Source: an uncultured Eubacteriales bacterium (GTDB lineage Bacteria > Bacillota > Clostridia > Christensenellales > CAG-1252). Taken from it: 46,579 bases of DNA. The DNA is taken from assembly GCA_902797685.1 (NCBI GenBank), contig CADBTQ010000065.1, forward strand, positions 1 to 46,579, given 5' to 3'. Position 1 is the stretch's first letter. Every line of letters begins with the position of its first letter. The translations under genes and the position numbers were made by a program. Below, in pieces: positions 19,783 through 34,200 of the stretch. The notes beneath the pieces were generated by a model that saw nothing but the letters and a program-made list of their open reading frames with translations, had not been told where the DNA came from and searched no databases.

Positions 19783-21029
19783 TCAAAAAACTTCGTATCC
19801 GATTTGTAGCGATCGCGATGGCGGCGGTGTTCGCCGTCCTTTTCGTGATCATGCTCGTCATCAACCTCATCAACTATTCCAACGTGCGCACGCAAGCGGA
19901 CGACTTGACCTACAAGATCGCCACCCACTCGGGCGGATTCGACCGCTTTTTTGACGGTACCACGCCCCCCGAGGGGCAAACGACCTCGCCGCTAGATGCC
20001 GAGCAGGGGCAGCCCCAAGAGGGTACGCCTCCCGACTTCGGGCGCACCGACCGCGAGGGCAAACGAGACGAGACCCCCTTCGAGACCCGCTTTTTTGTGG
20101 TGACCGTCGAGGGCGATCAAGTCACGACCAACACCTCGCAAATCGCCGCCGTTTCCGAAGACGAGGCGGTGGCTATGGCGCAAAAAGCGCTCGCAGGCAA
20201 CAAAACCAAAGGATACCAAGGGGTGTACCGCTATTTGGTGGACGGTGACACCGTCATCTTTGTGGACTGCACCAGACAGTTGGATTACGCCAAGACTTTT
20301 TTGATCATCTCCCTCTGTACCGCCGCAGGCGGTCTGTTGGCGGTGTTTGCTTTGGTCGTGCTGTTTTCGGGCAAGGTCGTCAAACCCTTCGTGCAAAATT
20401 ACGAGCGGCAAAAACGCTTTGTGACCGAAGCCAGTCACGAACTCAAGACCCCTCTGACCATCATTTCCGCCAACAACGAGTTGGTGGAGATAGAAGCGGG
20501 GGAGAGCGATTTCACCCACGCCATATCCAAGCAAGTCGAGCGCATGACCGTCATGGTCAAAAACATGACCGCTTTGGCTCGTCTTGACGAGATGGATATA
20601 CTCAAAGACAAGGCGGAGTTCGATTTGTCCGCCGCCATAGACGACGTGGCAAGCACCTTCCAAGCCCCCTTGGGAGAGGGATACTCGGTCAAGATCGACG
20701 AGGGCGTGCGCTATCTCGGCAACGAAAGTTTGATCAGGCAATTGACGTCCGTTTTGTTGGACAACGCCGTCAAGTATGCCGAGGGCCCCACCACTCTCTC
20801 TTTGGTGGGCGGTAAACACCCCGTACTTACCGTCAGCAACCCCTCGTCCGACTCGGACGGGGATCACAGCGCCTATCTCGACCGTTTCGGCAGAGGCGAA
20901 CAAGCCCGCGCCAAAGGAGAGGGTAGCGGTATCGGCTTAGCGCTCGCTAAGGAAATCGTTTCGCTCCATCACGGCAAAATCGAAGTGTTTCAACAAAAAG
21001 GGATTTTTACCGTTCGTATTATTTTGTAA
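19779..21029 (+). CDS. Membrane sensor histidine kinase
   Basis: A 416-residue kinase partner of the preceding regulator. Membrane helices at about 8-31 and 168-193 bracket an extracellular sensor of about 135 residues, whose first part is low in complexity (PPEGQ, QPQEGTPPDFGRTDREG) and whose second half (FETRFFVVTVEGDQVT) is PAS/Cache-like. There is no clear HAMP. The H box is TEASHELKTPL with phospho-acceptor His220. The N box is LTSVLLDNAVKYAE, and the G box is GEGSGIGLALAKEIV. The extended Asp/Glu-rich loop suggests sensing at the cell envelope, but the signal cannot be read from sequence. Start codon overlaps the regulator's stop. Confidence 0.94.
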   Translation: MIKKLRIRFVAIAMAAVFAVLFVIMLVINLINYSNVRTQADDLTYKIATHSGGFDRFFDGTTPPEGQTTSPLDAEQGQPQEGTPPDFGRTDREGKRDETPFETRFFVVTVEGDQVTTNTSQIAAVSEDEAVAMAQKALAGNKTKGYQGVYRYLVDGDTVIFVDCTRQLDYAKTFLIISLCTAAGGLLAVFALVVLFSGKVVKPFVQNYERQKRFVTEASHELKTPLTIISANNELVEIEAGESDFTHAISKQVERMTVMVKNMTALARLDEMDILKDKAEFDLSAAIDDVASTFQAPLGEGYSVKIDEGVRYLGNESLIRQLTSVLLDNAVKYAEGPTTLSLVGGKHPVLTVSNPSSDSDGDHSAYLDRFGRGEQARAKGEGSGIGLALAKEIVSLHHGKIEVFQQKGIFTVRIIL

Positions 21030-21037
21030 ATAAAACG

Positions 21038-21066
21038 TTGAAATCACGTAAAAATACTGCTATAAT
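21038..21066 (+). promoter_or_regulatory. Promoter of the 21102 membrane protein gene
   Basis: TTGAAA (21038-21043), 17 bp, TATAAT (21061-21066), just after the kinase stop codon. The gene downstream is therefore transcribed on its own, in addition to any readthrough. Confidence 0.8.
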
Positions 21067-21101
21067 ATTCTTATCCGAGTTTTTACAAAGAGGAGAAAAA
21101 T

Positions 21102-21686
21102 ATGAAAAATCAAAAGAATGCTATCAGTTTGTACAAAGTCGGCATCGTGTTTGGCGTTTTGGGGTTGCTCGGTGGGATCTATTTGATCTTCAACGGGGTG
21201 ATCATTCGCAACCACGTCGCCGAGTATGCCGCGAGGCTCAAATATGACGAGGCGATCGTCGAATTGGTCGCCGTCTACTACATCATCGCAGGCGTTTGGG
21301 CTTTGGTCGGCAACGTCGTCAATATCGCCTTGGGCAAAGTCGCCATCAACGCGTTAAACGAGATTCCCCCTCGCAAAGGGATCCACGTCGCTTTGTTGGT
21401 ATTGTCTATTTTGTTCGGCGGTATCTTCTACTTTATCGGCTCTATTCTTGCTATCGCTTTCGTCAACGGATTCAAGCCCGAAGACGTCCAACGATCCGAC
21501 GAAGAGTTGCCCTCTTGGCTTGGTGGTAATCCCACTCAAAACGCGTCGTCCAATGCCGACCCCACGAGAGAGGAAGGTCTGTCCCGCGAGTTGGACGAAG
21601 ATCCCTTTGCCGAGCCGCAACCCAAGCCCCAAGAAGATCCCTCCGGGCAACCCGAGCGAGAGGACGACCCTCATACGGAAGAATAG
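21102..21686 (+). CDS. Membrane protein with acidic cytoplasmic tail, function unknown
   Basis: A 194-residue protein with three to four membrane helices (about 12-34, 54-78, 93-119) and a hydrophilic, acidic, Pro-rich tail (about 125-194: repeated P-x-P, EDP, REE). The membrane part resembles small four-helix DUF-type proteins common in Bacillota, but I cannot name the family. AGAGGAG precedes the ATG. It lies next to the two-component system and may be its target or accessory; that is inference from position only. A strong terminator follows. Confidence 0.75.
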   Translation: MKNQKNAISLYKVGIVFGVLGLLGGIYLIFNGVIIRNHVAEYAARLKYDEAIVELVAVYYIIAGVWALVGNVVNIALGKVAINALNEIPPRKGIHVALLVLSILFGGIFYFIGSILAIAFVNGFKPEDVQRSDEELPSWLGGNPTQNASSNADPTREEGLSRELDEDPFAEPQPKPQEDPSGQPEREDDPHTEE

Positions 21687-21699
21687 TTTTTATCCAAAT

Positions 21700-21735
21700 A
21701 AAAATGCCTTCGCAACGTCTTGCGAAGGCATTTTT
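21700..21735. terminator. Bidirectional terminator
   Basis: AAAAATGCCTTCGCAA (21700-21715) pairs perfectly over 16 bp with 21720-21735, around a 4-nt loop. The A and T runs at the ends serve the convergent genes on both sides, the membrane protein and the iron alcohol dehydrogenase. Confidence 0.95.
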
Positions 21736-21747
21736 TGTAAGTTGAGT

Positions 21748-22989
21748 TTACGCTTGTTGCGCCTCTTCGGGTTTGACTTCTTCCATCAATTCGTACACGA
21801 TGGCGGACAGTTCCTTGCGGTCAAACAAGGTGGGGCAGGGGTACAAAGGATTGGCTTCCTTGTCCGCGCGCTCCACGATGGCGGGGATATCTTCCTCTTT
21901 GATGGCAAACTTGCCCCCGATCTTGGCGGGGATCTCCATTTTGGCGTTGAGGTCAACGATTGCGGCGATAAAGTTGTTGGCTTTTTCCTCTCTCGTATTG
22001 CCGCCGATTCCCACCAAATCCGCCAATTCCGCCAGCTTCTTGTGCGCCGACTTGCCGTACGCTTTGAGCATGGTGGGCAGGATGATGGACATCGCCAAGC
22101 CGTGCGGGATGTGGTAGAACGCGCCTAAGGCGTGACCGATGGCGTGAACGTAACCCACGTAGGCGCGAGTAAACGCGCGACCCGCGACCATGGCGGCAAA
22201 CTGCATATTGCCGCGAGCGGTCAGATTGGTAGGCTCGTTGTAGGCGGTGAGGATGTTGTCAAAGATGAGTTTGACGGCGGTCTTGGCGTCCTCTTTGGTG
22301 TGGCGGGTGTTGCTGTGACCGATATACGCTTCCACCGCGTGGGTCATGGCGTCCATGCCCGTCGTGGAAGTCACGGGTTTGGGCAGTCCCACGGTAAGAG
22401 TTGGATCGAGGATGACGAAACCGGGGATCAAACTCGGGTCGTTGATGGGATACTTTTCGTTTTTGTCGGGGTTGGAGATGACGGCTGCCAAAGTCACTTC
22501 GCTGCCCGTGCCCGCCGTGGTGGGTACCGCGTAGAAGGGGGGCAATTTGCTGTGGATCTTGAGTAGACCTTTCATCTTTTCGACCGGCTTTTTGGGATTG
22601 ACCGCCCGTGCCGCGATGATCTTGGCGCAGTCCATGGGGCTACCGCCGCCCACGGCTACCACCGTGTCGCAGTGGTTGGCTTGGTACAGCTTGAGCCCAT
22701 CCTCGATGCAGGCGATGGTGGGGTTGGGGACCACTTCGTCGTAGAGGGTAAAGGGCACGCCCTTTTGACGCAACGCCTCGAACAAGGGGGGCAGCAGGTT
22801 GGTGGACAAAAACTTATCCGTCACGACCAACACGCCTTGGCTTCCTTGCGCTTTGAGGGTGTCGGGCAAACGTTGCAACAGGCAGTGAGCGCCCTCGATG
22901 ACCTCGGCTTTGCGCCAGGGCATCAAAAACTCCGCGCAATACATGACTTTTTGATAGGTGCGGCAGTACGCCTTTTTGCAAATGTTCAT
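21748..22989 (-). CDS. Iron-containing alcohol dehydrogenase
   Basis: A 413-residue group III (Fe-ADH) NAD(P)-dependent dehydrogenase. It has the nucleotide-binding VVAVGGGSPMDCAKI, PTTAGTGSEVTLAAVI, and the metal-site TTGMDAMTHAVEAY (Asp) and GYVHAIGHALGAFYHIPHG (three His ligands). The first ~25 residues (MNICKKAYCRTYQKVMYCAEF) contain three Cys and are unlike most family members. The substrate is not readable: family members reduce butyraldehyde, lactaldehyde or 3-hydroxypropionaldehyde. A role in re-oxidising NADH during fermentation fits the glycerol genes elsewhere in the window. A GGAGG site precedes the ATG and a -10 box is at 23019-23024. Confidence 0.92.
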   Translation of the reverse strand: MNICKKAYCRTYQKVMYCAEFLMPWRKAEVIEGAHCLLQRLPDTLKAQGSQGVLVVTDKFLSTNLLPPLFEALRQKGVPFTLYDEVVPNPTIACIEDGLKLYQANHCDTVVAVGGGSPMDCAKIIAARAVNPKKPVEKMKGLLKIHSKLPPFYAVPTTAGTGSEVTLAAVISNPDKNEKYPINDPSLIPGFVILDPTLTVGLPKPVTSTTGMDAMTHAVEAYIGHSNTRHTKEDAKTAVKLIFDNILTAYNEPTNLTARGNMQFAAMVAGRAFTRAYVGYVHAIGHALGAFYHIPHGLAMSIILPTMLKAYGKSAHKKLAELADLVGIGGNTREEKANNFIAAIVDLNAKMEIPAKIGGKFAIKEEDIPAIVERADKEANPLYPCPTLFDRKELSAIVYELMEEVKPEEAQQA

Positions 22990-23018
22990 AATCGACCTCC
23001 GTCAATAACTTCCTCTCT

Positions 23019-23024
23019 ATTATA
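23019..23024 (-). promoter_or_regulatory. -10 element of the iron alcohol dehydrogenase gene
   Basis: TATAAT on the minus strand, about 30 bp before the ATG at 22989. The base run at the expected -35 position (TTTATT) is only a poor match, so the promoter may need activation. Confidence 0.5.
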
Positions 23025-23079
23025 TCACTAACAAATGACGAAATAAAGAGGTTTTGCCCTGTTTTTGCGACAAAAAACC

Positions 23080-23616
23080 TCAAAAATCAAGGCGATAGAG
23101 CTCTTTTCCGTCCAAATCGAAGATAGAAGCGCCCTTTTCGTCGAGCATTATGTAGGCGCGGAGTCCGTCTTTGGGCAGCGAGATCGAGCCGGGGTTGAGG
23201 ATATGCACGCCCGAGACGTCCTCGCACGTCACTTGATGGAAGTGTCCGTACACCAAGGTATCTCCTTGTGAAAGGGCGGGCAGATGGTCTTTGTTGAAGA
23301 CGTGACCGTGGGTAAGATAGACCTTGTTAGATCCCACCATTAGCGCCGCCGATTCCACAAAATGGAACTCGGAGATCATGCTATCCACTTCCGAGTCGCA
23401 GTTGCCCTTGACGACCAACAGTTTGTCTTTGATAGAGTTGAGCAATCTTGCCACTTCCATCGGGGCGTATTCTTGGGGTAAGGGGTTGCGGGGACCGTGA
23501 TTGTACACGTCCCCGAGTATCGCCAACAAGTCGCTCGAGCTCGTTTGGAAAATCTCGAGCGCCTTACGTGTATAGTACGCCGACCCGTGCAGGTCGGACA
23601 CGATCATCACTTTCAT
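23080..23616 (-). CDS. yfcE: YfcE-type metallophosphodiesterase
   Basis: A 178-residue calcineurin-like phosphoesterase. The start ATG at 23616 is chosen because it gives the family start MKVMIVSDLHGS, has GGAGG upstream, and sits in a 4-bp ATGA overlap with the Nudix gene; a longer open frame upstream is the antiparallel coding noise. Metal-binding motifs are SDLHG (Asp8-x-His10), LGDVYNHG, KGNCDSE, THGH and YGHFHQ, in the standard order. YfcE cleaves phosphodiesters in vitro; the natural substrate is not known. Length is normal for the family. Confidence 0.92.
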   Translation of the reverse strand: MKVMIVSDLHGSAYYTRKALEIFQTSSSDLLAILGDVYNHGPRNPLPQEYAPMEVARLLNSIKDKLLVVKGNCDSEVDSMISEFHFVESAALMVGSNKVYLTHGHVFNKDHLPALSQGDTLVYGHFHQVTCEDVSGVHILNPGSISLPKDGLRAYIMLDEKGASIFDLDGKELYRLDF

Positions 23617-24017
23617 CGTTTGCCTCCCAAATCCTCTATCAGCGCGTTGACGATGGGTGCGTCGGCGGGCGCCCACTCGTCGGGATCGAGTTGATCGACG
23701 GATAGCCACCGCCCTTCCTCGTGTTCCAACAGTCGATACTCGGAGCGCATCTCGCATAGATACGTGTGCAACGTCACCACGAAGTCGGGGTAGGTGTGCC
23801 GTACCGTCATATAGGGGCGTATCACCTCGGCGGTAAGCCCCATCTCTTCCTTGAGTTCCCGCTCCAACGCTTGGGGATAGTTTTCCCCGCTCTCCACTTT
23901 GCCGCCCGCAAACTCGTACTTGTGCGCGACGTAAGGGTAACGGCTGTCCCCGCGGCGTGCGGCAAACACCCTGTTGTTCTCGACAAATATGGCTCCTACT
24001 ACTTGCAATCGTTTCAT
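23613..24017 (-). CDS. mutT: MutT-type Nudix hydrolase
   Basis: A 134-residue (deoxy)nucleotide diphosphohydrolase, most like 8-oxo-dGTP diphosphatase, which sanitises oxidised nucleotides. The Nudix box G-x5-E-x7-REUxEExGU is intact: GGKVESGEN then ALERELKEEMGLT (about residues 38-62). The start MKRLQVVGAIFVENNRV is typical of MutT. The 3' end overlaps the yfcE start by 4 bp. There is no ribosome site: the predicted -10 box ends six bases before the ATG, so the transcript is probably leaderless. Substrate assignment is by resemblance. Confidence 0.9.
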   Translation of the reverse strand: MKRLQVVGAIFVENNRVFAARRGDSRYPYVAHKYEFAGGKVESGENYPQALERELKEEMGLTAEVIRPYMTVRHTYPDFVVTLHTYLCEMRSEYRLLEHEEGRWLSVDQLDPDEWAPADAPIVNALIEDLGGKR

Positions 24018-24023
24018 AAACTC

Positions 24024-24052
24024 ATTGTAGCACTTTTTGCAAGGCGTGGCAA
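24024..24052 (-). promoter_or_regulatory. Promoter of mutT-yfcE, predicted leaderless
   Basis: On the minus strand TTGCCA (24047-24052), 17 bp, TACAAT (24024-24029), then GAGTTT and the ATG. Transcription starting the usual 6-7 bases after the -10 box would begin at the A of the ATG. Confidence 0.75.
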
Positions 24053-24069
24053 TTATTTGCGCAAAACAC

Positions 24070-24099
24070 TTGTACCCTTATGCTCTTTCGTGCTATAAT
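24070..24099 (+). promoter_or_regulatory. Promoter of the FMN riboswitch transcript
   Basis: TTGTAC (24070-24075), 18 bp, TATAAT (24094-24099). The FMN aptamer begins within about 10 bases of the expected start site. The region between this and the divergent mutT promoter is only 17 bp. Confidence 0.8.
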
Positions 24100-24104
24100 C
24101 AAAT

Positions 24105-24235
24105 CACCTTGAGGCGAAGTGCAATTCTTCACCGGCGGTATAGTCCGCAAACACACCTTGGTGTGCCGAGTGGGTGCGATTCCCACACCGACGGTATAGT
24201 CCGGATGGCAAAGGGGGCGACGATCGTCGTCATAT
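24105..24235 (+). ncRNA. FMN riboswitch (RFN element)
   Basis: The conserved RFN blocks appear in order: GAGGCGAAGTGCAATTC, ACCGGCGGTATAGTCCGC, a variable hairpin (ACACACC-TT-GGTGTGC), GGGTGCGATTCCCACACC, and GACGGTATAGTCCGGATG. This is the FMN-binding aptamer that controls riboflavin genes in Bacillota. The exact closing of helix P1 is not certain, so the ends are approximate. It precedes a terminator hairpin and the RibU-like gene, which fits switching off riboflavin uptake when FMN is plentiful. Confidence 0.96.
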
Positions 24236-24248
24236 AGCCTGTTGACGT

Positions 24249-24275
24249 GCCGCTTCGAGGGAAGCGGCTTTTTTT
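24249..24275 (+). terminator. Riboswitch-controlled terminator
   Basis: GCCGCTTC (24249-24256) pairs with GAAGCGGC (24261-24268), followed by seven T. It lies between the FMN aptamer and the ATG at 24290, the position expected for the expression platform. When FMN binds, this hairpin should form and stop transcription. Confidence 0.9.
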
Positions 24276-24289
24276 ATCGGAGGAAAGAT

Positions 24290-25156
24290 ATGAAACAACT
24301 TAAGTGTACAAGTTGCGGGGCGAGTTTACACGTCCAAGAGGGACAAAAGACGGTCAAATGCGAGTACTGCGGTGCGGAAAATCGCCTGGAAGAGCCTACC
24401 GTCATCAACGCCGAGACGGTCAACGTCTACGTGGGGTCGGAAGGGTTAGTCCTCAACCAAGCCGAGCATAGCGACGAGATCGCGGGAGGGGAAGAGCCGT
24501 CCCAAGAGGCGCAAGAGCAGACCGCCAAGCCGCCCAAATCCAAAGCCCGCACGCTCACCATCAAGATCGCCATTACCGCCGTCTTTGCGGCGATGTCCTT
24601 TGGATTGTATCTTTTGGGCAAGTTTTGCAAATTGCCTTTTCTGTTCCCCTCGTTTTTGGACTTGCAATTCAGCGAATTGCCCGCTCTGATCGTGGGTTAC
24701 GCCTTGGGTCCCGTGTACGGGGCGGCGGTCATCGTGGTCAAGTGTTTGCTCAAGATGCCCATGACCTCGACCGGCTTCGTGGGGGAGTTGACCGATATCG
24801 TACTGGGGTTGTTGCTCGTGTTGCCCGCGTCCATACTGTACCGTTTCAAACGCAATCTCAAAGGCGCTATCTTGGGCGCACTGTTGGGTAGCTTTTTCAT
24901 GATCGGCGGGGCGATCCTTCTCAATCGCTTCGTGTCCATTCCCTTCTATCTCAAGACCTTCTTTGATGGCAACTGGGATATTTTGTTGGGTATGCTCAAA
25001 GGACTGTTCCCCAAGATCAATCAACAAAACTTCTACCGCTACTACCTCTGGTGCAGCGTGTTGCCCTTCAATTTCTTGCGTTGCTTGGTCATGTGCTTGC
25101 TCACCTTCGGCGTTTACAAACGGCTGTCCAAGTTGATCCACCGCATCACCATGTAG
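24290..25156 (+). CDS. ribU: Riboflavin ECF transporter S-component (RibU-like) with N-terminal zinc ribbon
   Basis: A 288-residue membrane protein. The ATG at 24290 follows GGAGGAAAG; an upstream in-frame start lies within the terminator. Residues 1-30 are a zinc ribbon (Cys6/9 and Cys24/27, 14 residues between). Then come INAETVNVY (39-47) and an acidic Gln-rich linker to about residue 85. From there six membrane helices form the S-component, with the RibU-type LFPSFLDLQFSELPALIVG and GFVGELTDIV. It would bind riboflavin and work with an EcfAA'T energy module encoded elsewhere. The FMN riboswitch upstream supports the substrate. RibU is normally about 190 residues without the ribbon, so the fusion is unusual. 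A partial copy of the ribbon-linker module is on the protein at 2183-3205. Confidence 0.9.
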   Translation: MKQLKCTSCGASLHVQEGQKTVKCEYCGAENRLEEPTVINAETVNVYVGSEGLVLNQAEHSDEIAGGEEPSQEAQEQTAKPPKSKARTLTIKIAITAVFAAMSFGLYLLGKFCKLPFLFPSFLDLQFSELPALIVGYALGPVYGAAVIVVKCLLKMPMTSTGFVGELTDIVLGLLLVLPASILYRFKRNLKGAILGALLGSFFMIGGAILLNRFVSIPFYLKTFFDGNWDILLGMLKGLFPKINQQNFYRYYLWCSVLPFNFLRCLVMCLLTFGVYKRLSKLIHRITM

Positions 25157-25163
25157 CGATCGC

Positions 25164-25192
25164 TTGACGAAACGGGGCGGGGGTTATATAAT
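25164..25192 (+). promoter_or_regulatory. Promoter of the tsaE operon, predicted leaderless
   Basis: TTGACG (25164-25169), 17 bp, TATAAT (25187-25192), then six bases and the ATG at 25199. There is no ribosome site between. The -10 box lies inside a perfect inverted repeat, GGTTAT-ATA-ATAACC (25182-25196), which could be a regulator site. Confidence 0.8.
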
Positions 25193-25198
25193 AACCGC

Positions 25199-25603
25199 AT
25201 GGAATTTTTATCAAAAAGCGTAAAGGATACCTATGAGATCGCAGCCAAGTTAGCGCAAGAGTTGACGGGCGGCGAGATCATCTTGTTGGACGGGGACTTG
25301 GGCGCGGGCAAAACCACCTTTGTCAAAGGGTTGGCTTTGGCGTTGGGCGTCAAAGACGTGGTGACCTCGCCCACCTTTACTCTTTTCAATCAATACGAGG
25401 GGACTAAGTTATCCCTTTACCACTTCGACCTCTATCGTTTGGAAGAGGGGGAAGCGGACGAGTTGGGTTTCGACGAGTATATCGGCGATCCCCAAGCGGT
25501 CACTTGTATCGAATGGAATCGCGATAAGCCATCGGGCAAAGTGATCCGCTTGCAAGCGCGTTACGTGGAGGGTGACCCCGAGGCGAGGGTGTACAGTTGG
25601 TGA
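25199..25603 (+). CDS. tsaE: tRNA t6A synthesis ATPase TsaE
   Basis: A 134-residue P-loop ATPase of the bacterial complex that makes threonylcarbamoyladenosine at tRNA position 37. It shows Walker A GDLGAGKTTF (about 32-41), SPTFTLFNQYEG, the LYHFDLYRLE block and CIEWNRDKP near the end. Length and motif order are typical. The stop codon is followed after one base by the tsaB ATG. The gene begins the operon tsaE-tsaB-rimI-hydrolase-murF-ddl. The transcript start probably coincides with the start codon. Confidence 0.95.
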   Translation: MEFLSKSVKDTYEIAAKLAQELTGGEIILLDGDLGAGKTTFVKGLALALGVKDVVTSPTFTLFNQYEGTKLSLYHFDLYRLEEGEADELGFDEYIGDPQAVTCIEWNRDKPSGKVIRLQARYVEGDPEARVYSW

Positions 25604-25604
25604 T

Positions 25605-26174
25605 ATGAACGTACTGTTGATCGATACTTCCGCTCGCTTGGTAGCGGTACAAATATTGGGTGACAAACAAGTGCTTGCGGTGGACGAAGGTAAGACGGGT
25701 TCCACTTCGTCGCGCATTATGCCGACGATCGAAAGCGCGCTGTCCCAAGCGGGACTTTCGGTCAAGGACTTGGACGTGGTCGCTGCGATCTCGGGCCCCG
25801 GTAGTTTTACGGGACTTCGTATCGGCGTGTCGGTCGCCAACGGTTTGGCGTTCGGCTTGGGGTGCAAGCGCTTGCCCGTACCCCTTCTTGCCGCCATCCG
25901 AGAGGGTGCGCCCCTTGCGGCGATCCCTTCCCGCAACGGGTTCAGTTATACCTTAGGGGCGGAATATGCCGAACTGTCCGTCGAGGATGTGGCGGAGCAA
26001 GAGTCGGTAGGCACCCAAGGGAGCGGGGCAAAGATCGTGTTGTCCCAAGAGGAAGTCTTTGCTCGATGCGCTCGCTACGTCCTTTCCCACCTTGACGAGG
26101 CAAGCGAACGTCCTATCGAGCCGATGTACCTCAAAAAATGCCAAGCCGAGAGGGAAAGAGAGGGCAAAGCATGA
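25605..26174 (+). CDS. tsaB: tRNA t6A synthesis protein TsaB
   Basis: A 189-residue member of the ASKHA fold that scaffolds TsaD and TsaE. The ATG at 25605 gives the family start MNVLLIDTSARLVAV and lies one base after the tsaE stop; a longer in-frame start inside tsaE is not needed. ISGPGSFTGLRIGVSVANGLAF is the family signature (given as GPGSFTGLRIG core). At 189 residues it is shorter than the usual ~220-230, with a reduced C-terminal domain. It overlaps rimI by 4 bp. TsaD, its partner, is not encoded in the window. Confidence 0.93.
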   Translation: MNVLLIDTSARLVAVQILGDKQVLAVDEGKTGSTSSRIMPTIESALSQAGLSVKDLDVVAAISGPGSFTGLRIGVSVANGLAFGLGCKRLPVPLLAAIREGAPLAAIPSRNGFSYTLGAEYAELSVEDVAEQESVGTQGSGAKIVLSQEEVFARCARYVLSHLDEASERPIEPMYLKKCQAEREREGKA

Positions 26175-26605
26175 TCTCCTATCGTCCTGCGACCTTAGAC
26201 GATCTGGGAATACTGTCCACGATCGAAAAGGCTTGTTTTGCCGACCCGTGGAACGACTTGATGCTCCAAGAGGAGCTATCCGTGCCGGGTAGCGTCTATA
26301 CCCTCATGCTCGAAGACGAGGTCGTGGTGGGTTATTATTCTTACATGCACATTATCGACGAGGCGCATATACTGAATGTGGCGATCCTGCCTGCGTATCA
26401 AGGGCGGGGATTGGGCAAACAGATGATGCGCCATCTGATCGATACTCTGCCGTCAGACGTCAAAGGGGTCACCCTCGAGGTACGAGACGGCAACAAGCGC
26501 GCGATCGCATTGTACGAAGGGTGCGGTTTTGCGTTTGCGGGCAAACGGCCCGGGTATTATCTCAACAAGGAGGACGCGCGTATCTACTGGCTCAAAAAGG
26601 AGTAG
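26171..26605 (+). CDS. rimI: Ribosomal protein S18 alanine N-acetyltransferase RimI
   Basis: A 144-residue GNAT acetyltransferase. The ATG at 26171 lies in an ATGA overlap with tsaB, with family-like start MISYRPATLDDLGILSTIE. Motif A is VAILPAYQGRGLGKQMM (acetyl-CoA pyrophosphate loop QGRGLG), followed by LEVRDGNKRAIALYEGCGF, a hallmark of RimI. Members acetylate the N-terminal alanine of S18, though relaxed targets are known. tsaB-rimI adjacency is common in Bacillota. It is followed after three bases by the hydrolase gene. Confidence 0.93.
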   Translation: MISYRPATLDDLGILSTIEKACFADPWNDLMLQEELSVPGSVYTLMLEDEVVVGYYSYMHIIDEAHILNVAILPAYQGRGLGKQMMRHLIDTLPSDVKGVTLEVRDGNKRAIALYEGCGFAFAGKRPGYYLNKEDARIYWLKKE

Positions 26606-26608
26606 TCG

Positions 26609-27292
26609 ATGTTTTGCGTCCGTCAAGGACAAGGTCAGGAAGTATTATACTTGCATGGATGGGGTTGTTCGCACGAGGTTTTCGCCTCTTGTCGCAACCC
26701 CTCTTTTTGCGAAACGTTGCCCGACTTGTACGGGTTTGGCGAGACCCCCGCACCCACGCATCCCGTGGATCTGGACTATTACGTCGAGGGGGTCAAGCGA
26801 CTGATGGATCGCTACTATATGCAAAACGTGGTCGTGGTCGCTCACTCGTTCGGCGCGCGCATAGCGGTACGTCTTGCCGCCACCTCTCCCCACGTAGTCG
26901 GGCTGGTATTGGTGGGCGCGGCGGGTATGAGACCCCGTCGGGGGGTTAAATACCTCGCTCGGGTAGCCCACGCCAAGCTCGCCAAACTCTTTCGCCTAAG
27001 ACCCCCCGAAGGCAGCGAGGATTACCGTCGCCTGTCGGGTGCGATGAAGGGGACTTTCGTCAATATCGTACATACCTATCAAGAAAAGGAATTGAGCCGT
27101 GTCACCGTGCCCGTCCTTTTGGTGTGGGGCGCCGAGGACAAGGAGACCCCGCCCTATATGCTCAAACGGTTTGAAAAGGGGTTGCCCCTTTCCCGCACGG
27201 TATGGATGGAGCGTTGCGGGCACTTTTGTTTTGCTCAACAGCCCGATCGCTTTCGGCGGTTGGTCGCGACCTTCGTGGAGGAACTCCAATGA
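26609..27292 (+). CDS. Alpha/beta hydrolase, substrate unknown
   Basis: A 227-residue single-domain alpha/beta-hydrolase. The oxyanion motif is LHGWG (15-19), the nucleophile elbow is AHSFGA with Ser80, the acid is Asp177 in WGAEDKETP, and the base is His205 in CGHFCF. It shows no signal peptide, so it acts in the cytoplasm or at the inner membrane face. It sits between rimI (3-bp gap) and the MurF-like gene (4-bp overlap), so its translation is coupled to cell-wall precursor synthesis. Proteins of this fold can be esterases, peptidases or thioesterases; no specific activity can be read from the sequence. Confidence 0.85.
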   Translation: MFCVRQGQGQEVLYLHGWGCSHEVFASCRNPSFCETLPDLYGFGETPAPTHPVDLDYYVEGVKRLMDRYYMQNVVVVAHSFGARIAVRLAATSPHVVGLVLVGAAGMRPRRGVKYLARVAHAKLAKLFRLRPPEGSEDYRRLSGAMKGTFVNIVHTYQEKELSRVTVPVLLVWGAEDKETPPYMLKRFEKGLPLSRTVWMERCGHFCFAQQPDRFRRLVATFVEELQ

Positions 27293-28743
27293 CGGTAGGC
27301 TTTTATGTGGTCTTAGGCGTGGCGACGGTCGCGGGGCTCGTTCTCATCACGGGGAGCGTGTACCGCTTGCAGCGGGCAAGGTATCGGTTGCGCCCATTAT
27401 CCAAAGGGCAGGTGGGTTTGTATCTTTTGATGCTCGGCTTAGTCGGGGCGCTGTGTGCGCTCGGACAATGGTTTTGTTTGCCCCTTTTGTGGATCTGTAT
27501 CGGCATATTGCCGCCTCTCGTCATGGCGGTGATGACCTTGGCGCTCAAGCGGTTCCCTCGATTGACCGCACGCCCCGTTCGCTTGACTGTCGCCGCCGTC
27601 TTGACGTACGTTTGCTTGATGGTCACGCTTATGGCGCTCGGGCTGTTCGCCTGGTCTCCTTTGCTCGCTTCGGCTCCCCCCTTGCTCGTAAGAGCGATCG
27701 CCTTGCCCCTCGGTAGATGGGAAGAGCGGCACAACCGCCGCTTTGTGGCAAAAATGAAAGCCAAATTGGCAAGCTCGGGCGCGATCACCGTAGGGATCAC
27801 CGGCTCGGCGGGCAAAACCACCGTCAAAAATCTGTTGACCGTCGTGCTTGGCGAGGGAGCGTATCCCAGTCACGGCAATTACAACACGCCGATGGGCTTG
27901 GCGTTGTCCATCAAGGAGATGCCACCGCACACTCGTTATTTCGTGGCGGAGATGGGAATCAGCCACCCCGGGGATATGCAAGCGCTTTTGGACGTGGTCC
28001 ACCCCTACTTGGGGATATTGACCAACGTTTTGCCTCAGCACACTTTGACCGCGGGCGGGGTAGAGGAGATACTCGCTCATAAGCGGCAAATGCTGTTGGC
28101 GTCGAAGTTGGCGATCGCCCCCGTCGGATCGGACGTCGCAAGAGCGGCTCTAACCGTGGGCGAGGGCGGGGATTGGAGCGCCGAGGAGGTCGTTTTGCAC
28201 CTCGATCACACCTCGTTCGTCGCCGTACACGAGGGACGTCGCTATCCCGTCACCCTTCCTCTCTTAGGTCGGGCGTGCGTATTGGACGCGCTGTTTGCGT
28301 TTGCGGCGGGCGTGACGTTGGGGGTAGAGCCTTCCCTTGCCGCCTCTCGTCTGTCCAAGGTAGAGCGGGTCCCCCATCGTATGCAGCTTACCCCCAATGA
28401 CAGAGGGATCACCATTATCGACGACAGTTACAACCTCAATATCGAGGGCGCCAAGAGCGCGATGGAATACCTGTCGCTGTACTCGGGGCGCAAAGTCGTG
28501 ACCGTGTCGGGTATCGCCGAAAGCGATCCGTCGCTTCGACTCAACGAGCGATTAGGGGAGATCGTCTCGGGTGCGGACGTAGTGATATTGGTAGGGGAAC
28601 GCTATCGCGCTCCTTTGCTTCAAGGAATACGGCAGGGCACCCTCGTACACTTTGCCGAGGATACGCCCGCCACCGTCAAATTGTACCAAAAACTATTGCG
28701 GACGGGGGACGTATTGTTGATATTGGCGGATATGCCCAAATAG
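27289..28743 (+). CDS. murF: Membrane-anchored MurF-like Mur ligase
   Basis: A 484-residue protein. The ATG at 27289 overlaps the stop of the hydrolase gene (ATGA). The first ~150 residues hold about four membrane helices instead of the usual soluble UDP-sugar-binding domain. The ligase core begins at about 165, with the P-loop GITGSAGKTTVKNLL, SHGNYNTPMGLALS, VAEMGISHPGDM, NVLPQHT and the MurF-type IIDDSYNLNIEGAKSAMEYL. MurF adds D-Ala-D-Ala to the UDP-MurNAc-tripeptide. The neighbour ddl makes that dipeptide, supporting the assignment. The acceptor may be recognised differently because the N-terminal domain is replaced. Confidence 0.87.
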   Translation: MTVGFYVVLGVATVAGLVLITGSVYRLQRARYRLRPLSKGQVGLYLLMLGLVGALCALGQWFCLPLLWICIGILPPLVMAVMTLALKRFPRLTARPVRLTVAAVLTYVCLMVTLMALGLFAWSPLLASAPPLLVRAIALPLGRWEERHNRRFVAKMKAKLASSGAITVGITGSAGKTTVKNLLTVVLGEGAYPSHGNYNTPMGLALSIKEMPPHTRYFVAEMGISHPGDMQALLDVVHPYLGILTNVLPQHTLTAGGVEEILAHKRQMLLASKLAIAPVGSDVARAALTVGEGGDWSAEEVVLHLDHTSFVAVHEGRRYPVTLPLLGRACVLDALFAFAAGVTLGVEPSLAASRLSKVERVPHRMQLTPNDRGITIIDDSYNLNIEGAKSAMEYLSLYSGRKVVTVSGIAESDPSLRLNERLGEIVSGADVVILVGERYRAPLLQGIRQGTLVHFAEDTPATVKLYQKLLRTGDVLLILADMPK

Positions 28744-28750
28744 GAGTGAT

Positions 28751-29761
28751 ATGAAAAACGTAGTTTTGTTATATGGCGGCAGATCGTACGAACACGACGT
28801 CAGCGTGATCACGGCGATCGAGGTGGGACAATGGTGTCCCCAACAGTATCGGCTCTATCCCGTCTATATGCGGGATGGCGAGTGGTGGCTCGTCAAGGAT
28901 TGGCAGCGCTTCGGGTCGTACACTTCGACCATCAAAGGGCGTAAAGTGCGCCTTGACGACGAGGGCTTGCACGTGGGGATCAAAACCGTCAAGGTGGATT
29001 GCGTGCTGCTATCGACCCACGGCGGGGAAGGAGAGGACGGCAGGTTGCAGTCGCTTCTGGAGTGGTGGGGCTTGCCGTACACTTCGTGCGACCCCCTCAC
29101 CTCGGGGATATTGATGGACAAAGTATTCGCCAAATCGGTGCTCAAGGAGAGGGGTTTCGTCGTTGCGCCCGCGTATCCCGAATCAGCCCCTGTCTATCCC
29201 GTCATCGTCAAGCCCGCAAGGCTCGGCAGCAGCATCGGGGTTGGGGTCGCTCGCAACGAAGAGGAATACCGCCAAGCGTTGGCTAACGCCGAAGATTACG
29301 ACAGATCGGTGCTGGTAGAACAGTTTTTGGAAGGGGCTGTCGAGTATAATTGCGCGATCCTTCGGGATGGCGATCAACTCCTCGTCAGCGAGATCGAGTG
29401 CCCGCGCCATACGGGGGATACTTATACGTTTGGACAAAAGTACCAAAAGGAATGCGAGCACGCCTTACCCGCTCCCATGGAAGACGGATTGCGGGAGGAG
29501 ATCAAGCGCACGACCTCGTCCCTGTATACGGCGCTTCGTTGCAAAGGGGTGGTCAGGGTGGATTATCTCTATCACCAAGGGACGCTGTACGTCAACGAGG
29601 TCAATACCATCCCCGGGGCGTTGTCCTATCGATTGTTCGGCGCGGCGGGTGTTTCCATCGGCAAACTGTTGACGATACTTATCGAAAACGCGTCTTGCCA
29701 ACCTCGTCCCAAGGTCAAGTACGGAGAGTTGTTGGACGATCTGATCGGCGCTTGGAAATAG
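28751..29761 (+). CDS. ddl: D-alanine--D-alanine ligase
   Basis: A 336-residue ATP-grasp ligase that joins two D-alanines for peptidoglycan. It shows the N-terminal LYGGRSYEHDVSV with the substrate-binding Glu, LSTHGGEGEDGRLQSLLEWW, the ATP-grasp strand VIVKPARLGSSIGVGVA, VVRVDYLYHQG and the metal site VNEVNTIPGAL. It follows the MurF-like gene by 7 bp with AGGAG before the ATG. It ends the operon. Nothing indicates a D-Ala-D-Lac or D-Ala-D-Ser variant for certain, as the selectivity loop was not compared. Confidence 0.95.
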   Translation: MKNVVLLYGGRSYEHDVSVITAIEVGQWCPQQYRLYPVYMRDGEWWLVKDWQRFGSYTSTIKGRKVRLDDEGLHVGIKTVKVDCVLLSTHGGEGEDGRLQSLLEWWGLPYTSCDPLTSGILMDKVFAKSVLKERGFVVAPAYPESAPVYPVIVKPARLGSSIGVGVARNEEEYRQALANAEDYDRSVLVEQFLEGAVEYNCAILRDGDQLLVSEIECPRHTGDTYTFGQKYQKECEHALPAPMEDGLREEIKRTTSSLYTALRCKGVVRVDYLYHQGTLYVNEVNTIPGALSYRLFGAAGVSIGKLLTILIENASCQPRPKVKYGELLDDLIGAWK

Positions 29762-29820
29762 CCGAGTCGCCCGTCACAGGCTTCGCCGTTATCCAAGTAT
29801 GGGATATGAGATCGTGCGAA

Positions 29821-29849
29821 AAAGCGCCTTACATAATGCAAGGCGCTTT
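29821..29849. terminator. Bidirectional terminator after ddl
   Basis: AAAGCGCCTT (29821-29830) pairs with AAGGCGCTTT (29840-29849). The A-rich run to the left serves the prepilin gene on the minus strand, and the T-rich run to the right serves the tsaE-ddl operon. Confidence 0.88.
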
Positions 29850-29866
29850 CTTTGTCTCAACAAAGA

Positions 29867-30367
29867 TTACAGATCGACAGCCGTAGGTTCGGTAAGGTAG
29901 CGGCTCATCGTGTACAACACCCCGTCCTCGAGATAAAAAACCGTGTCCATAAAATACGTAAAGTTGACGGGAGTATGGTTGCGCACGTGATCGTAGATGT
30001 CGATATCGCAGTAACGATATAGCACGTAATAACCTGCGTTGGCGTTTTTGCTCGGCTTAAAGTTGTCCGCCGCTTCGCCGTCGTCCAAAAAGATGACGTT
30101 GACGGGGCGGGTCTTGGTGCGTTGGGCGATGGTGTCGGACAGGTTGCCCACGTCGATCATCGAAAAGCCCCCGTTCAACTCCGCCATCACCCCGTTGCAG
30201 GTCTCGAAATAGGTCTTGACCGAGGTGGTGCTTTGTCGTCTTTTGGATGACTTGACCGCACTTGCGATGGAAATGCCCGCGACCGACGACAAAATACCCA
30301 AGATGGCGATGACGACCACCAACTCGACTAAGGTAAACGCTAATTTGTTCGCAAGCATTCGTTTCAT
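29867..30367 (-). CDS. Type IV prepilin-like protein
   Basis: A 166-residue protein with a class III signal: a short basic leader (MKRMLANKLA), then FTLVELVVVIAILGIL, with Glu at position +5 of the mature form. The leader ends in Ala instead of the usual Gly before the Phe, which is tolerated in some prepilins. The hydrophobic helix spans about residues 11-34, and the C-terminal domain is globular with YYVLYRYCDIDIYDHV. No prepilin peptidase, ATPase or platform gene is in the window, so it is an orphan. The promoter puts the start site at the ATG or one base before it, so the mRNA is probably leaderless. Confidence 0.87.
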   Translation of the reverse strand: MKRMLANKLAFTLVELVVVIAILGILSSVAGISIASAVKSSKRRQSTTSVKTYFETCNGVMAELNGGFSMIDVGNLSDTIAQRTKTRPVNVIFLDDGEAADNFKPSKNANAGYYVLYRYCDIDIYDHVRNHTPVNFTYFMDTVFYLEDGVLYTMSRYLTEPTAVDL

Positions 30368-30374
30368 AGCACAA

Positions 30375-30403
30375 AGTATAGCACTTTTTTGACCTCAAGT
30401 CAA
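30375..30403 (-). promoter_or_regulatory. Promoter of the prepilin-like gene, predicted leaderless
   Basis: On the minus strand TTGACT (30398-30403), 17 bp, TATACT (30375-30380), then seven bases to the ATG at 30367. Its -35 half overlaps the -35 region of the divergent promoter at 30389-30417. Confidence 0.82.
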
Positions 30404-30417
30404 TAGGTAGGTATAGA
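30389..30417 (+). promoter_or_regulatory. Divergent promoter overlapping the prepilin promoter
   Basis: TTGACC (30389-30394), 17 bp, TATAGA (30412-30417), reading toward the gene at 30448. The two promoters share 15 bp, and the shared part is an inverted repeat, TTGAC-CTCAA-GTCAA, that contains both -35 boxes. Confidence 0.7.
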
Positions 30418-30447
30418 CCGCCGCTCTTTCGTCCAAAATGATGGGCG

Positions 30448-31191
30448 ATGAAAAGGCGCAATTGGTACAAGTGGATAGTGGTAGCGGTGGCGGTCGCTTT
30501 GGTCACGTTGGCGGCGGTGTTATCCCGCCCCGCGGGCGATCTTGCTTCGACCGATCCCGCCTTTTCCGCCGAGGCTTCCGAAACGGAAGCGGCGGTTGAC
30601 GCGCCGCCTTGGCGTAAAGTAGAGAGAGGGGACGGCAAGTCAGTCGACGAGTTGTTTTCTCATTCCACCGCCTATCACGACGAGCATATCGACTACGGAA
30701 TGCTCGTTGACAAGTGCGTTTATTTCGACAGCCCCTCGGTGTTTCTTCCTTGGGACGAGTGGCTGTATTTGATCCACCAAGTGGTAATGTCTTCTCCGGG
30801 CGCGCTCAAAAAGACACAAGTGCAAAACACGTATATTCTCGTGCAAAACGGCACTTTATACCTCAAAATCGACGCAAACTACCATATCGACAACAAGTTT
30901 TTGAGGCTGTTTGTCAACGGCAGGGATACCGTTTTCGTGACGGTCAACGTCTCGCTTGTTTACGACCGGACCGCAGGCTCGTTTGCAGTAGGCGGGGTGT
31001 CCTGTTCCTCTCCCGCCATGTCGGACGCTTCGCTTAAGACGGCGTTCCGTTTGCTCACCAAGCACTCCGATTATCAATCTTTGGCGGCAACGTATTTGGA
31101 CGTTTTGGTCCACGTGGGCGCCGTCGGCGATCCTTCGGGAAACAATCCCGTCACCGAAGACGGCGTAAGTTTGATTCTTAATACACATTAA
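30448..31191 (+). CDS. Membrane-anchored protein of unknown function
   Basis: A 247-residue protein with an N-terminal signal or anchor (about 9-27) after MKRRNWYK, then an Ala/Glu/Ser/Thr-rich stalk (about 28-55) and an extracytoplasmic domain of about 190 residues with several beta-strand-like segments (TYILVQNGTLYLKIDANYHI, FVTVNVSLVYDRTAGSFAVGG). I do not recognise the family. The ribosome site is weak (GGGCG). It lies between the divergent prepilin gene and the giant surface protein, separated from the latter by its own promoter. An envelope role is inferred from this neighbourhood. Confidence 0.72.
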   Translation: MKRRNWYKWIVVAVAVALVTLAAVLSRPAGDLASTDPAFSAEASETEAAVDAPPWRKVERGDGKSVDELFSHSTAYHDEHIDYGMLVDKCVYFDSPSVFLPWDEWLYLIHQVVMSSPGALKKTQVQNTYILVQNGTLYLKIDANYHIDNKFLRLFVNGRDTVFVTVNVSLVYDRTAGSFAVGGVSCSSPAMSDASLKTAFRLLTKHSDYQSLAATYLDVLVHVGAVGDPSGNNPVTEDGVSLILNTH

Positions 31192-31203
31192 CCATTTTAC
31201 CCC

Positions 31204-31232
31204 TTGCAAATTGCGCGCATTCGTGCTATTAT
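31204..31232 (+). promoter_or_regulatory. Promoter of the giant surface protein operon
   Basis: TTGCAA (31204-31209), 17 bp, TATTAT (31227-31232). A second possible -10, TATAAT, is at 31239-31244, without a suitable -35. GAGGTG serves as the ribosome site for the ATG at 31265. Confidence 0.7.
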
Positions 31233-31264
31233 GTAAAATATAATGCGCATATGCGAGGTGTATT

Positions 31265-34200
31265 ATGACAAGAAGTAGGACCGCAATTTGGATTACCTTG
31301 TTGACTGCCGTCGTTCTGGCTTTGGTCGGATTGGCTTGCACGACTTCTTTTGCCGCTTCGGCGGAAGAGGAAGTCCTGACCATGGACGCTACGCTTTATT
31401 GGTATCACGACGCCATGGACAACGTCGTTATATCTCCCAGGCTTTGGACTCGCCCGAGTGCCGACGCCGAGTGGACGATCGTCGAGCTTGACGACGTGGA
31501 CGCCTATCTTCGCTACGTCTCTTCGGACGGCACCACGGCACAGGTCGCGCCCACCCAATTCGGCAATTACACCGTGCAGATCGTGTTGGGCGACAATGCG
31601 GCGCTCTATCGCTCCCTTTCCGGCACGACCTTGGGTCCGGGGTCGGTCGTATTCGAGCGGCAGTATCGACTACTTCCCGAACAGCTCTCCATCGTGTTCG
31701 CTCCCCAAAACAACGTCGTGCAGGGGCAGTACAGTTATAGCAGGATCCTCAACGAAACCTTGGTCCTTCGCGCAGGGCAACCCTTGGAGCGCGACGTCGA
31801 CTATTCGGTATCCGTGTCCAAAGGCGGGGTAGCGGTCACCTCGATCGCGGACGCGGGCGAATACACCGTGGCTGTCACTTTGCTGTCTCCCGTGGGTACC
31901 TACTCCGCAGGAGAGCGCTTCGAGTCCGTCTTTTTGGTCAAGACCAATTTGGACGGGTTGATCGCCGTGGATTCCACCGTTCGCTACGAGGGTATGTTCT
32001 ACGATCCCACCCGTGGGGACGCTGTCGCATATTACACCCCCACCTTTAGCGGCACGCTCGTTTCCTCTTATGAGGATAGTTATTCGGTCACCTATTTGAC
32101 CGAGGACGGGCAAGTGCTCCTTTCCGCGCCCACTTTCGCCGGTACTTTTGTCGCTCGCGTCACCCTTACTTCCGCCATCGACCCGCTCGGCTTGTCCGTC
32201 GGCGATTACGTGGATTGTTATTACACTATTTTGCCCCTTCCTTATACCGTTACTTTCCGCACGACCGCGGGCAATCACGAAGGCTCGGACAAGTTCGATT
32301 TGTACTATTCCCCCGAGGGGATCGGCGTGCTTGCTCCCGTGGTCTCCAACGGCAACGATACTTTGGACGCGGGCTATCTCGCTACCTCTTACTACAAGTG
32401 GAACGAGTCTATCCGCTCTTGGCAAGCCATGCCGCTTAGCGAACTCGGCGCAAAAGGCAACGTCATTTCCTCGGTCGGGTTGTATCGCGTGCTGTTCGAG
32501 TTGGACTATACCGCGGACGGCGGCACTTCGCTCGCGGGCAACGCTTGGTTCCCGGGCGCCAACGGCTTTGCCATCACCCAAGACAACAATATCTTGACCT
32601 GCTATTTCGAGGTCAAGAGCAATTACACGGTATCGGGATTTAGTTCTTCGTACGTCTACACCGGCGAGGTCTTGACAGAGGGGCAACTCAATCCCGTCGT
32701 CATGAGCCGCGGCTCCAACGGTAGGGGCTATTTCGAGGTGGCGTACTATTTGGACGGCGCTCCCGTCTCCCGCGATCAAGTGGGTTTGGAGAGCGGCCGT
32801 TACGAGGGCGTCATCACTTTTGACGAATGGATCTTAGACGGGGACGTGCCCTATACCGTCACCCAAGCGGGGGAGCAATATCACTTTTGGTTCGACGTCT
32901 TGCCCAAGACTTTCGTTATCCGTTCGAGCGATACGTTCAGCCACGAGGCGTTTGAACAAAACTTGCTCGACTTGCTTTGTTTGTCCGATCTCCATCACGT
33001 TAGCCTCGACTACTTGTCCTATCACGACGGCTACTACGACGTGGTAAGCAAAGGCGACTTCTTTACCCAAGTCGGTTTTTATCGACTGGACGTCACCGTG
33101 TCCCAAGGACGCTACGACGGTTACGTTTTCTCTTTTGATTTTGTCAATCGCGCCGCTTCTTCGCTCAAACAGATCGGCGTTTCTTTCGACAATACGACCA
33201 ACACCGTCATTCCCTACACGGGTATGCCCGTCGTGGCGGACTTCGACTTCGGCGATATGCCCGATACCACCCGTTTGAGTATCCTGTACGAGCAAAAAGA
33301 TGGGGAAGACTGGGCGTACTGCGACTATCCCGTCCTGCCCGGCGACTACCGCGTGAGAGTGCACTTCAACGAGGCGTGTCCCTATTTCGACGTGGATAAC
33401 GGCGCCGAATATACCGTCGCCTTTACCATCAAAGCCTTGTCCTTCTCGGTCGAGTTCGAAGTGGACGGCACGGACGACGTGTACGACGGCAACGTCAAAT
33501 CGTATCGGGCGACCTATTACGCCGATTCCCGCCCCATGCTTTCTTCCGAGGTGGAGATGATGGGCGTCAAGGTGTTGTACGCTCGCGCTACCGACGATCC
33601 CGAGGACTTGGTGTTCGACCCCTCGGCTCGTCCCTTGGAAGCGGGCGGCTACTACTTTGCGGTCACGTTCGACGACGATATGCGCATGTTCGGTCTGACC
33701 GCTTATACCGGCAGCGAATACACCTACGCCAACTTGATCGGTCATGCGGTGTTCAGCCGTCAGATCACGGTGCAAAGACTGCAACTCGCCGCTTTGGTGG
33801 ATCTGCCCTCGGGCTACGGCGGACTGTACACCAAAGGGCAATCGTTGGTGCCTTCGTATACTTTTTACAAATACAACGGCAGCGATCTTTCCGATCCCGC
33901 CGAGATAGCGAAATTGGAAAAGGTGGAGTGGGTCAACGCTTCCTACTACGATGTGCAATATCGTCGCGGCGAGTTGGGCGGCACCGGCTTCGGCAACGAT
34001 TGGATCGATCCCTCTCTCAGCGGGACGTACCCCACCGAGACGGGCAATTATCAATACATCATCGCTCTCCACTTGGAGCACGGCGGTAATTTGTACGTCG
34101 CCAAAGTCGCTACACCCTCGCAAGGGGAGTCCTTGGCGGTCGACCTGGATATGGTGGGCGGCAAATACGGCTTTGATCGTCCCTCCGTGTCGGGCGTGTA

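Follow-up and report, generated by a model that had tools for sequence, protein, structure and literature searches.

Promoters placed directly before start codons suggest a class of leaderless genes in an uncultured Eubacteriales lineage

The genome of an uncultured Eubacteriales bacterium appears to hold a distinct class of leaderless genes, whose predicted transcripts start at the start codon itself; after background subtraction, this class is estimated at about 5% of the genes. These transcripts are very probably truly leaderless and would arise from ordinary sigma-A promoters, beside normal genes led by Shine–Dalgarno (SD) sites. A sequence-only reading had predicted such transcripts for three genes (mutT, tsaE, and a prepilin gene) of the window, that is, the whole stretch of 46,579 nucleotides that was analysed. 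Since the promoter geometry is real, specific to SD-less genes, genome-wide, and conserved, leaderless transcription seems by far the best reading of the sequence; at this level, a leader of 1–3 nt would be indistinguishable from none.

Promoters and starts of the three genes

The three genes have -35/-10 pairs with 17-bp spacing, located exactly where the earlier reading had put them, and gaps of 6, 6, and 7 nt, respectively, between the -10 hexamer and the ATG. The NUDIX hydrolase gene mutT (23613..24017, minus strand) shows the layout TTGCCA-N17-TACAAT-gagttt-ATG. The promoter scan placed its -35 hexamer at 24047..24052 and its -10 hexamer, with a TG ahead of it, at 24024..24029, both on the minus strand. 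This gene is the leading one, and an overlapping phosphoesterase gene comes next. On the plus strand, tsaE (25199..25603, Pfam TsaE) shows TTGACG-N17-TATAAT-aaccgc-ATG and opens a gene run of the tsaE-tsaB-rimI type. Its -35 hexamer (25164..25169) has a TTG which is kept in relatives, and its -10 hexamer (25187..25192) is near-invariant across 21 leaderless tsaE genes. The prepilin-like protein, which carries an N-methylation motif, is encoded on the minus strand (29867..30367) with the layout TTGACT-N17-TATACT-ttgtgct-ATG, the -35 hexamer being at 30398..30403 and the -10 hexamer, again with a TG ahead, at 30375..30380.

A scan of positions 20000–34000 (14 kb) for sigma-70-type promoters returned 17 sites against 6.9 in shuffles, and the promoters of the three genes are three of the four best matches. 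The claim that these genes have no ribosome site was borne out, as no SD match of at least 4 bases precedes the ATG of mutT, tsaE, or the prepilin gene.

The -10 hexamer of a promoter occupies positions -12 to -7. With a gap of 6 nt, the +1 position is thus expected to fall on the first base (A) of the ATG, and the transcript would begin with AUG. In the proposed mechanism, the promoter is of the sigma-A type (TTGNNN, 17 bp, and TATAAT or a near match), with the -10 box 6 nt away from the ATG (5 or 7 nt in some cases), and the remaining genes would be translated through their SD sites. Ribosomes would bind the 5′-terminal AUG directly, probably as 70S, by analogy with other bacteria, where leaderless mRNAs are mostly bound by 70S ribosomes (PMC9031893). 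The features of a leaderless class were found, i.e., a gap of 5–7 nt, no SD, an AUG start, and the conserved start of a real protein. On the contrary, the AGGAGG-like site of an SD-led gene is missing at mutT, tsaE, and the prepilin gene, despite the intact anti-SD of order-mates.

The window also contains an FMN riboswitch (Rfam RF00050, 92.9 bits) at 24101–24220, ahead of a membrane protein gene at 24290. The product of this gene is similar to a riboflavin-type ECF transporter subunit and has an N-terminal zinc-ribbon-like CxxC pair.

Genome-wide pattern and products

The pattern TATAAT-Nd-ATG was searched in the whole genome (1.78 Mb in 95 contigs). Further counts come from a 442-kb sample, i.e., 21 stretches of the same genome with 394 genes, 376 of them with sufficient upstream DNA; these genes were called by a simple home-made caller which relies on codon usage only and ignores upstream signals.

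In the whole genome, the pattern occurs 35 times with N6, 10 times with N5, and six times with N7. Frames of at least 60 codons are opened by 30 of the 35 N6 sites, compared with one of the 10 N5 sites and one of the six N7 sites. A random ATG in this genome opens such a frame in 37.5% of cases, and the probability of the N6 result is therefore about 6e-9. Similarly, in the 442-kb sample, 12 sites with d=6 begin frames of 60 or more codons, against one at the most for any other distance between 1 and 12. The -10-like boxes of the sample show a sharp maximum at exactly 6 nt (14 genes vs. around 2–3 at most other distances).

The signal is specific to genes without an SD. In detail, TANNNT is found 5–7 nt ahead of the start in 28 of 172 SD-less genes of the sample but in only two of 204 SD genes (Fisher p 1.7e-8). 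The SD-led genes have their -10 boxes in a broader peak about 28–30 nt upstream, which is the usual leadered spacing. As to the start codon, frames of at least 100 codons at the leaderless spacing are opened by 10 of 15 ATGs, none of two GTGs, and none of three TTGs, these being small numbers from the same sample. A scan for -10 boxes 6–7 nt before SD-less starts, proposed together with the original prediction, was positive over the genome.

One TATAAT-N6-ATG of the window, at 31239, was left uncounted because its frame has five codons only and the large gene that follows is equipped with a separate GAGGTG site. This short frame (31239–31268) ends in an ATGA which spans the start of a 2317-aa surface-type protein, and it may be a very short upstream frame or a product of chance.

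Most of the 30 proteins encoded at N6 sites match Pfam families, and many are aligned from their first residues. The products include DnaX, UvrC, Maf, SmpB, BioY, and NFACT/RqcH, as well as a YgiQ-type radical SAM protein, an RlmL-type methyltransferase, a DHH phosphoesterase, a two-component pair, and others. The alignments of DnaX, UvrC, SmpB, Maf, NFACT/RqcH, and the radical SAM protein to the first residues show that the N6 ATGs are true starts. In the relative G008, 23 N6 sites open frames, with DNA polymerase I, type III pantothenate kinase, and shikimate kinase among the Pfam-assigned products. The two ribosome-rescue genes seen in the source genome, smpB (L005:1513-1962) and the NFACT/RqcH gene (L002:1513-3015), share the leaderless geometry.

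These distances also bear on a reading in which the mRNAs start a few bases off, with a leader of 1–5 nt or with the AUG partly removed in some of them, and would be translated independently of an SD without being strictly leaderless. A start-site wobble of 1–2 nt is normal, the prepilin gap is 7 nt in about half of the homologues, and some tsaE genes of relatives have d=7–8. The genome-wide peak, however, is sharp at d=6 and not spread over 5–9, which suggests selection for an AUG exactly at +1, and we consider short leaders very unlikely as the general explanation.

Conservation in family, order, and class

The first comparison across genomes concerned tsaE. The geometry (-10 with at least 5/6 matches, -35 with at least 3/6, spacer of 16–18, and gap of 6–8) is present before this gene in 14 of the 17 family genomes, in 12 of 42 from the remainder of the order (belonging to nine further families), and in one of 51 from the remainder of the class. 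When the anchor was slid upstream under the same rule, the control rates were 0.7%, 1.3%, and 2.8%, respectively. Judged by this geometry, tsaE is leaderless in 10 of the 31 families sampled within the order. Outside the order, the gene mostly has an SD match or lies directly behind another gene.

Within the 14 upstream regions of the family, information reaches 1.75 bits per base in the -10 box and 1.25 in the -35 region, vs. 0.36 in the spacer and 0.34 in the far flank. Pairwise identity averages 90% for the -10 box but 36% for spacer plus discriminator; conservation at the family level is in part shared ancestry.

The prepilin geometry recurs in 16 of 18 homologues with 27–48% protein identity, against an average of 0.75 of 18 in the slid control. 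All 16 have TTGACA or TTGACT, a spacer of 17–18 bp, a -10 box, and an ATG 6 or 7 nt beyond it. In genus g3, the prepilin upstream regions (L120, L121, L124-L126, L128, and L130) carry a near-perfect palindrome, TTGTCAATATA-n-TATATTGACAA, which overlaps the -35 box and is likely an operator for some regulator. The window's prepilin gene has a weaker TTGACTTGAGGTCAA at the position of the palindrome.

The geometry of mutT is present in G000, G001, and G002, which is only part of the genus. The gene is SD-led in the genus-mate G005 and in many members of genus g3, and in another genus-mate, G003, it has no promoter. This patchy distribution shows that one of the three genes is a recent or labile case. 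An interchange between SD-led and leaderless starts has been reported in Actinobacteria (PMC3160421), and the mutT pattern agrees with it.

For each genome, enrichment was measured as the TATAAT-N6-ATG count divided by the mean of the N9–N11 counts, because chance sites dilute exact-TATAAT counts in AT-rich genomes. Median ratios are 3.0 for the family (n=20), 1.3 for the order outside the family (n=45), and 0.84 for the class outside the order (n=131), with Mann-Whitney p values of 3e-12 for family vs. class and 6e-11 for order vs. class. The feature is therefore concentrated in the family, with a weaker signal over the order. Three genomes of the class from other families beyond the order (G150, G180, and G111) have ratios of 1.9–2.2, and independent leaderless lineages are possible there.

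As a 16S gene is missing from the assembly of the source genome, the anti-SD was read in three order-mates with complete 16S genes, where CCTCC is intact. Judged from these order-mates, the ribosome is ordinary as to its anti-SD. Membership in Clostridia is supported through the 16S of one order-mate, G049, which among full-length plasmid-record matches is nearest to Clostridia (84–85% to Vescimonas and Monoglobus).

The conservation weighs on the idea that expression comes mainly from upstream promoters or read-through, the close promoters being secondary or due to chance and translation proceeding by coupling or from an SD-free leader. The tsaE gene does lie 42 bp behind the same-strand FMN-riboswitch transporter gene, and in C. 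phytofermentans, where 4% of genes appear leaderless, most of these retain an RBS and have another start upstream (PMC5171806). Here, on the contrary, the genes lack an RBS, the -35, the -10, and their spacing are kept in relatives though the flanks diverge, and far more N6 sites open frames than chance would give; such expression is highly improbable as the main route. It is scarcely credible that the true starts lie downstream, with the ATG falling 6–7 nt from the -10 box by coincidence (a +1 preference for A, then TG): A is indeed the commonest +1 base after TATAAT-N6 and the prepilin gene has a further in-frame ATG at 30358, yet the first prepilin ATG is the start in homologues, the tsaE ATG at the promoter is in many relatives the sole nearby start and the point where the protein match begins, and many of the N6 proteins match Pfam from their first residues.

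Relation to known leaderless genes and significance

Leaderless genes as such are of a known kind, and the present class is a well-supported case in a lineage for which the papers searched do not describe them. The statement of the sequence-only reading that they are rare in Clostridia agrees with published start-site maps. For instance, 15 leaderless genes appear in the map of C. difficile (PMC7438776), and the share in solventogenic clostridia is 2–3% (PMC9045289). The statement is qualified by 212 leaderless transcripts reported from RNA-seq of C. acetobutylicum (PMC4533764) and a low-level prediction for Firmicutes in 2011, which covered 56 of 209 genomes with a mean of 4.2% and was concentrated in Lactobacillales and Mycoplasma (PMC3160421).

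In Actinobacteria and Deinococcus-Thermus (Mycobacterium tuberculosis, Streptomyces, and Deinococcus), a TANNNT -10 box about 12 nt before the start, no SD, and SD genes alongside are likewise found (PMC3160421, PMC3898074). The share there is about 20–40% of genes, whereas the present class is near 5% and has a clear -35 and TATAAT. The Firmicutes predictions (Lactococcus-Streptococcus, Oenococcus-Leuconostoc, and Mycoplasma) share the sigma-A TATAAT promoter directly before the ATG (PMC3160421). They refer, however, to Bacilli and Mollicutes, while the genes described here have good -35 boxes and belong to an uncultured lineage whose order-mates' 16S is Clostridia-like. The apparent leaderless transcripts of mapped Clostridia (C. 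difficile, C. phytofermentans, and solventogenic Clostridium) are of the same class, so far as the present genes can be placed, with a small fraction of start sites at the start codon (PMC7438776, PMC5171806, PMC9045289, PMC4533764); in C. phytofermentans the RBS and the other start are mostly kept, and here the SD is absent and the arrangement conserved. No report of a conserved leaderless tsaE was found in the literature searched, and the tsaE-containing operon of M. tuberculosis is described without leaderless architecture (PMC5335608).

A wider proposal is that an ancient order-wide set in these Clostridia (tsaE foremost, with DNA-repair, tRNA- and rRNA-modification, and ribosome-rescue genes such as smpB and rqcH) stays leaderless because translation from a 5′-terminal AUG would be regulated differently from SD translation, e.g., under limitation of subunit joining or of IF3, and that promoter position would thereby define a regulon. 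We regard this as rather unlikely and offer it tentatively.

The conservation is more interesting than the mere existence of leaderless genes. In published start-site maps of Clostridia, leaderless mRNAs are a small, poorly understood fraction, and the present lineage would offer a clean, conserved leaderless class beside SD genes, in genomes small enough for full analysis. Gene-start annotation is also affected, as SD-based gene finders can misplace leaderless starts. The lineage would further provide a list of genes, tsaE included, whose promoter and start codon evolve as a single unit, and would make it testable why leaderless starts persist across the order in some genes but change in others like mutT.
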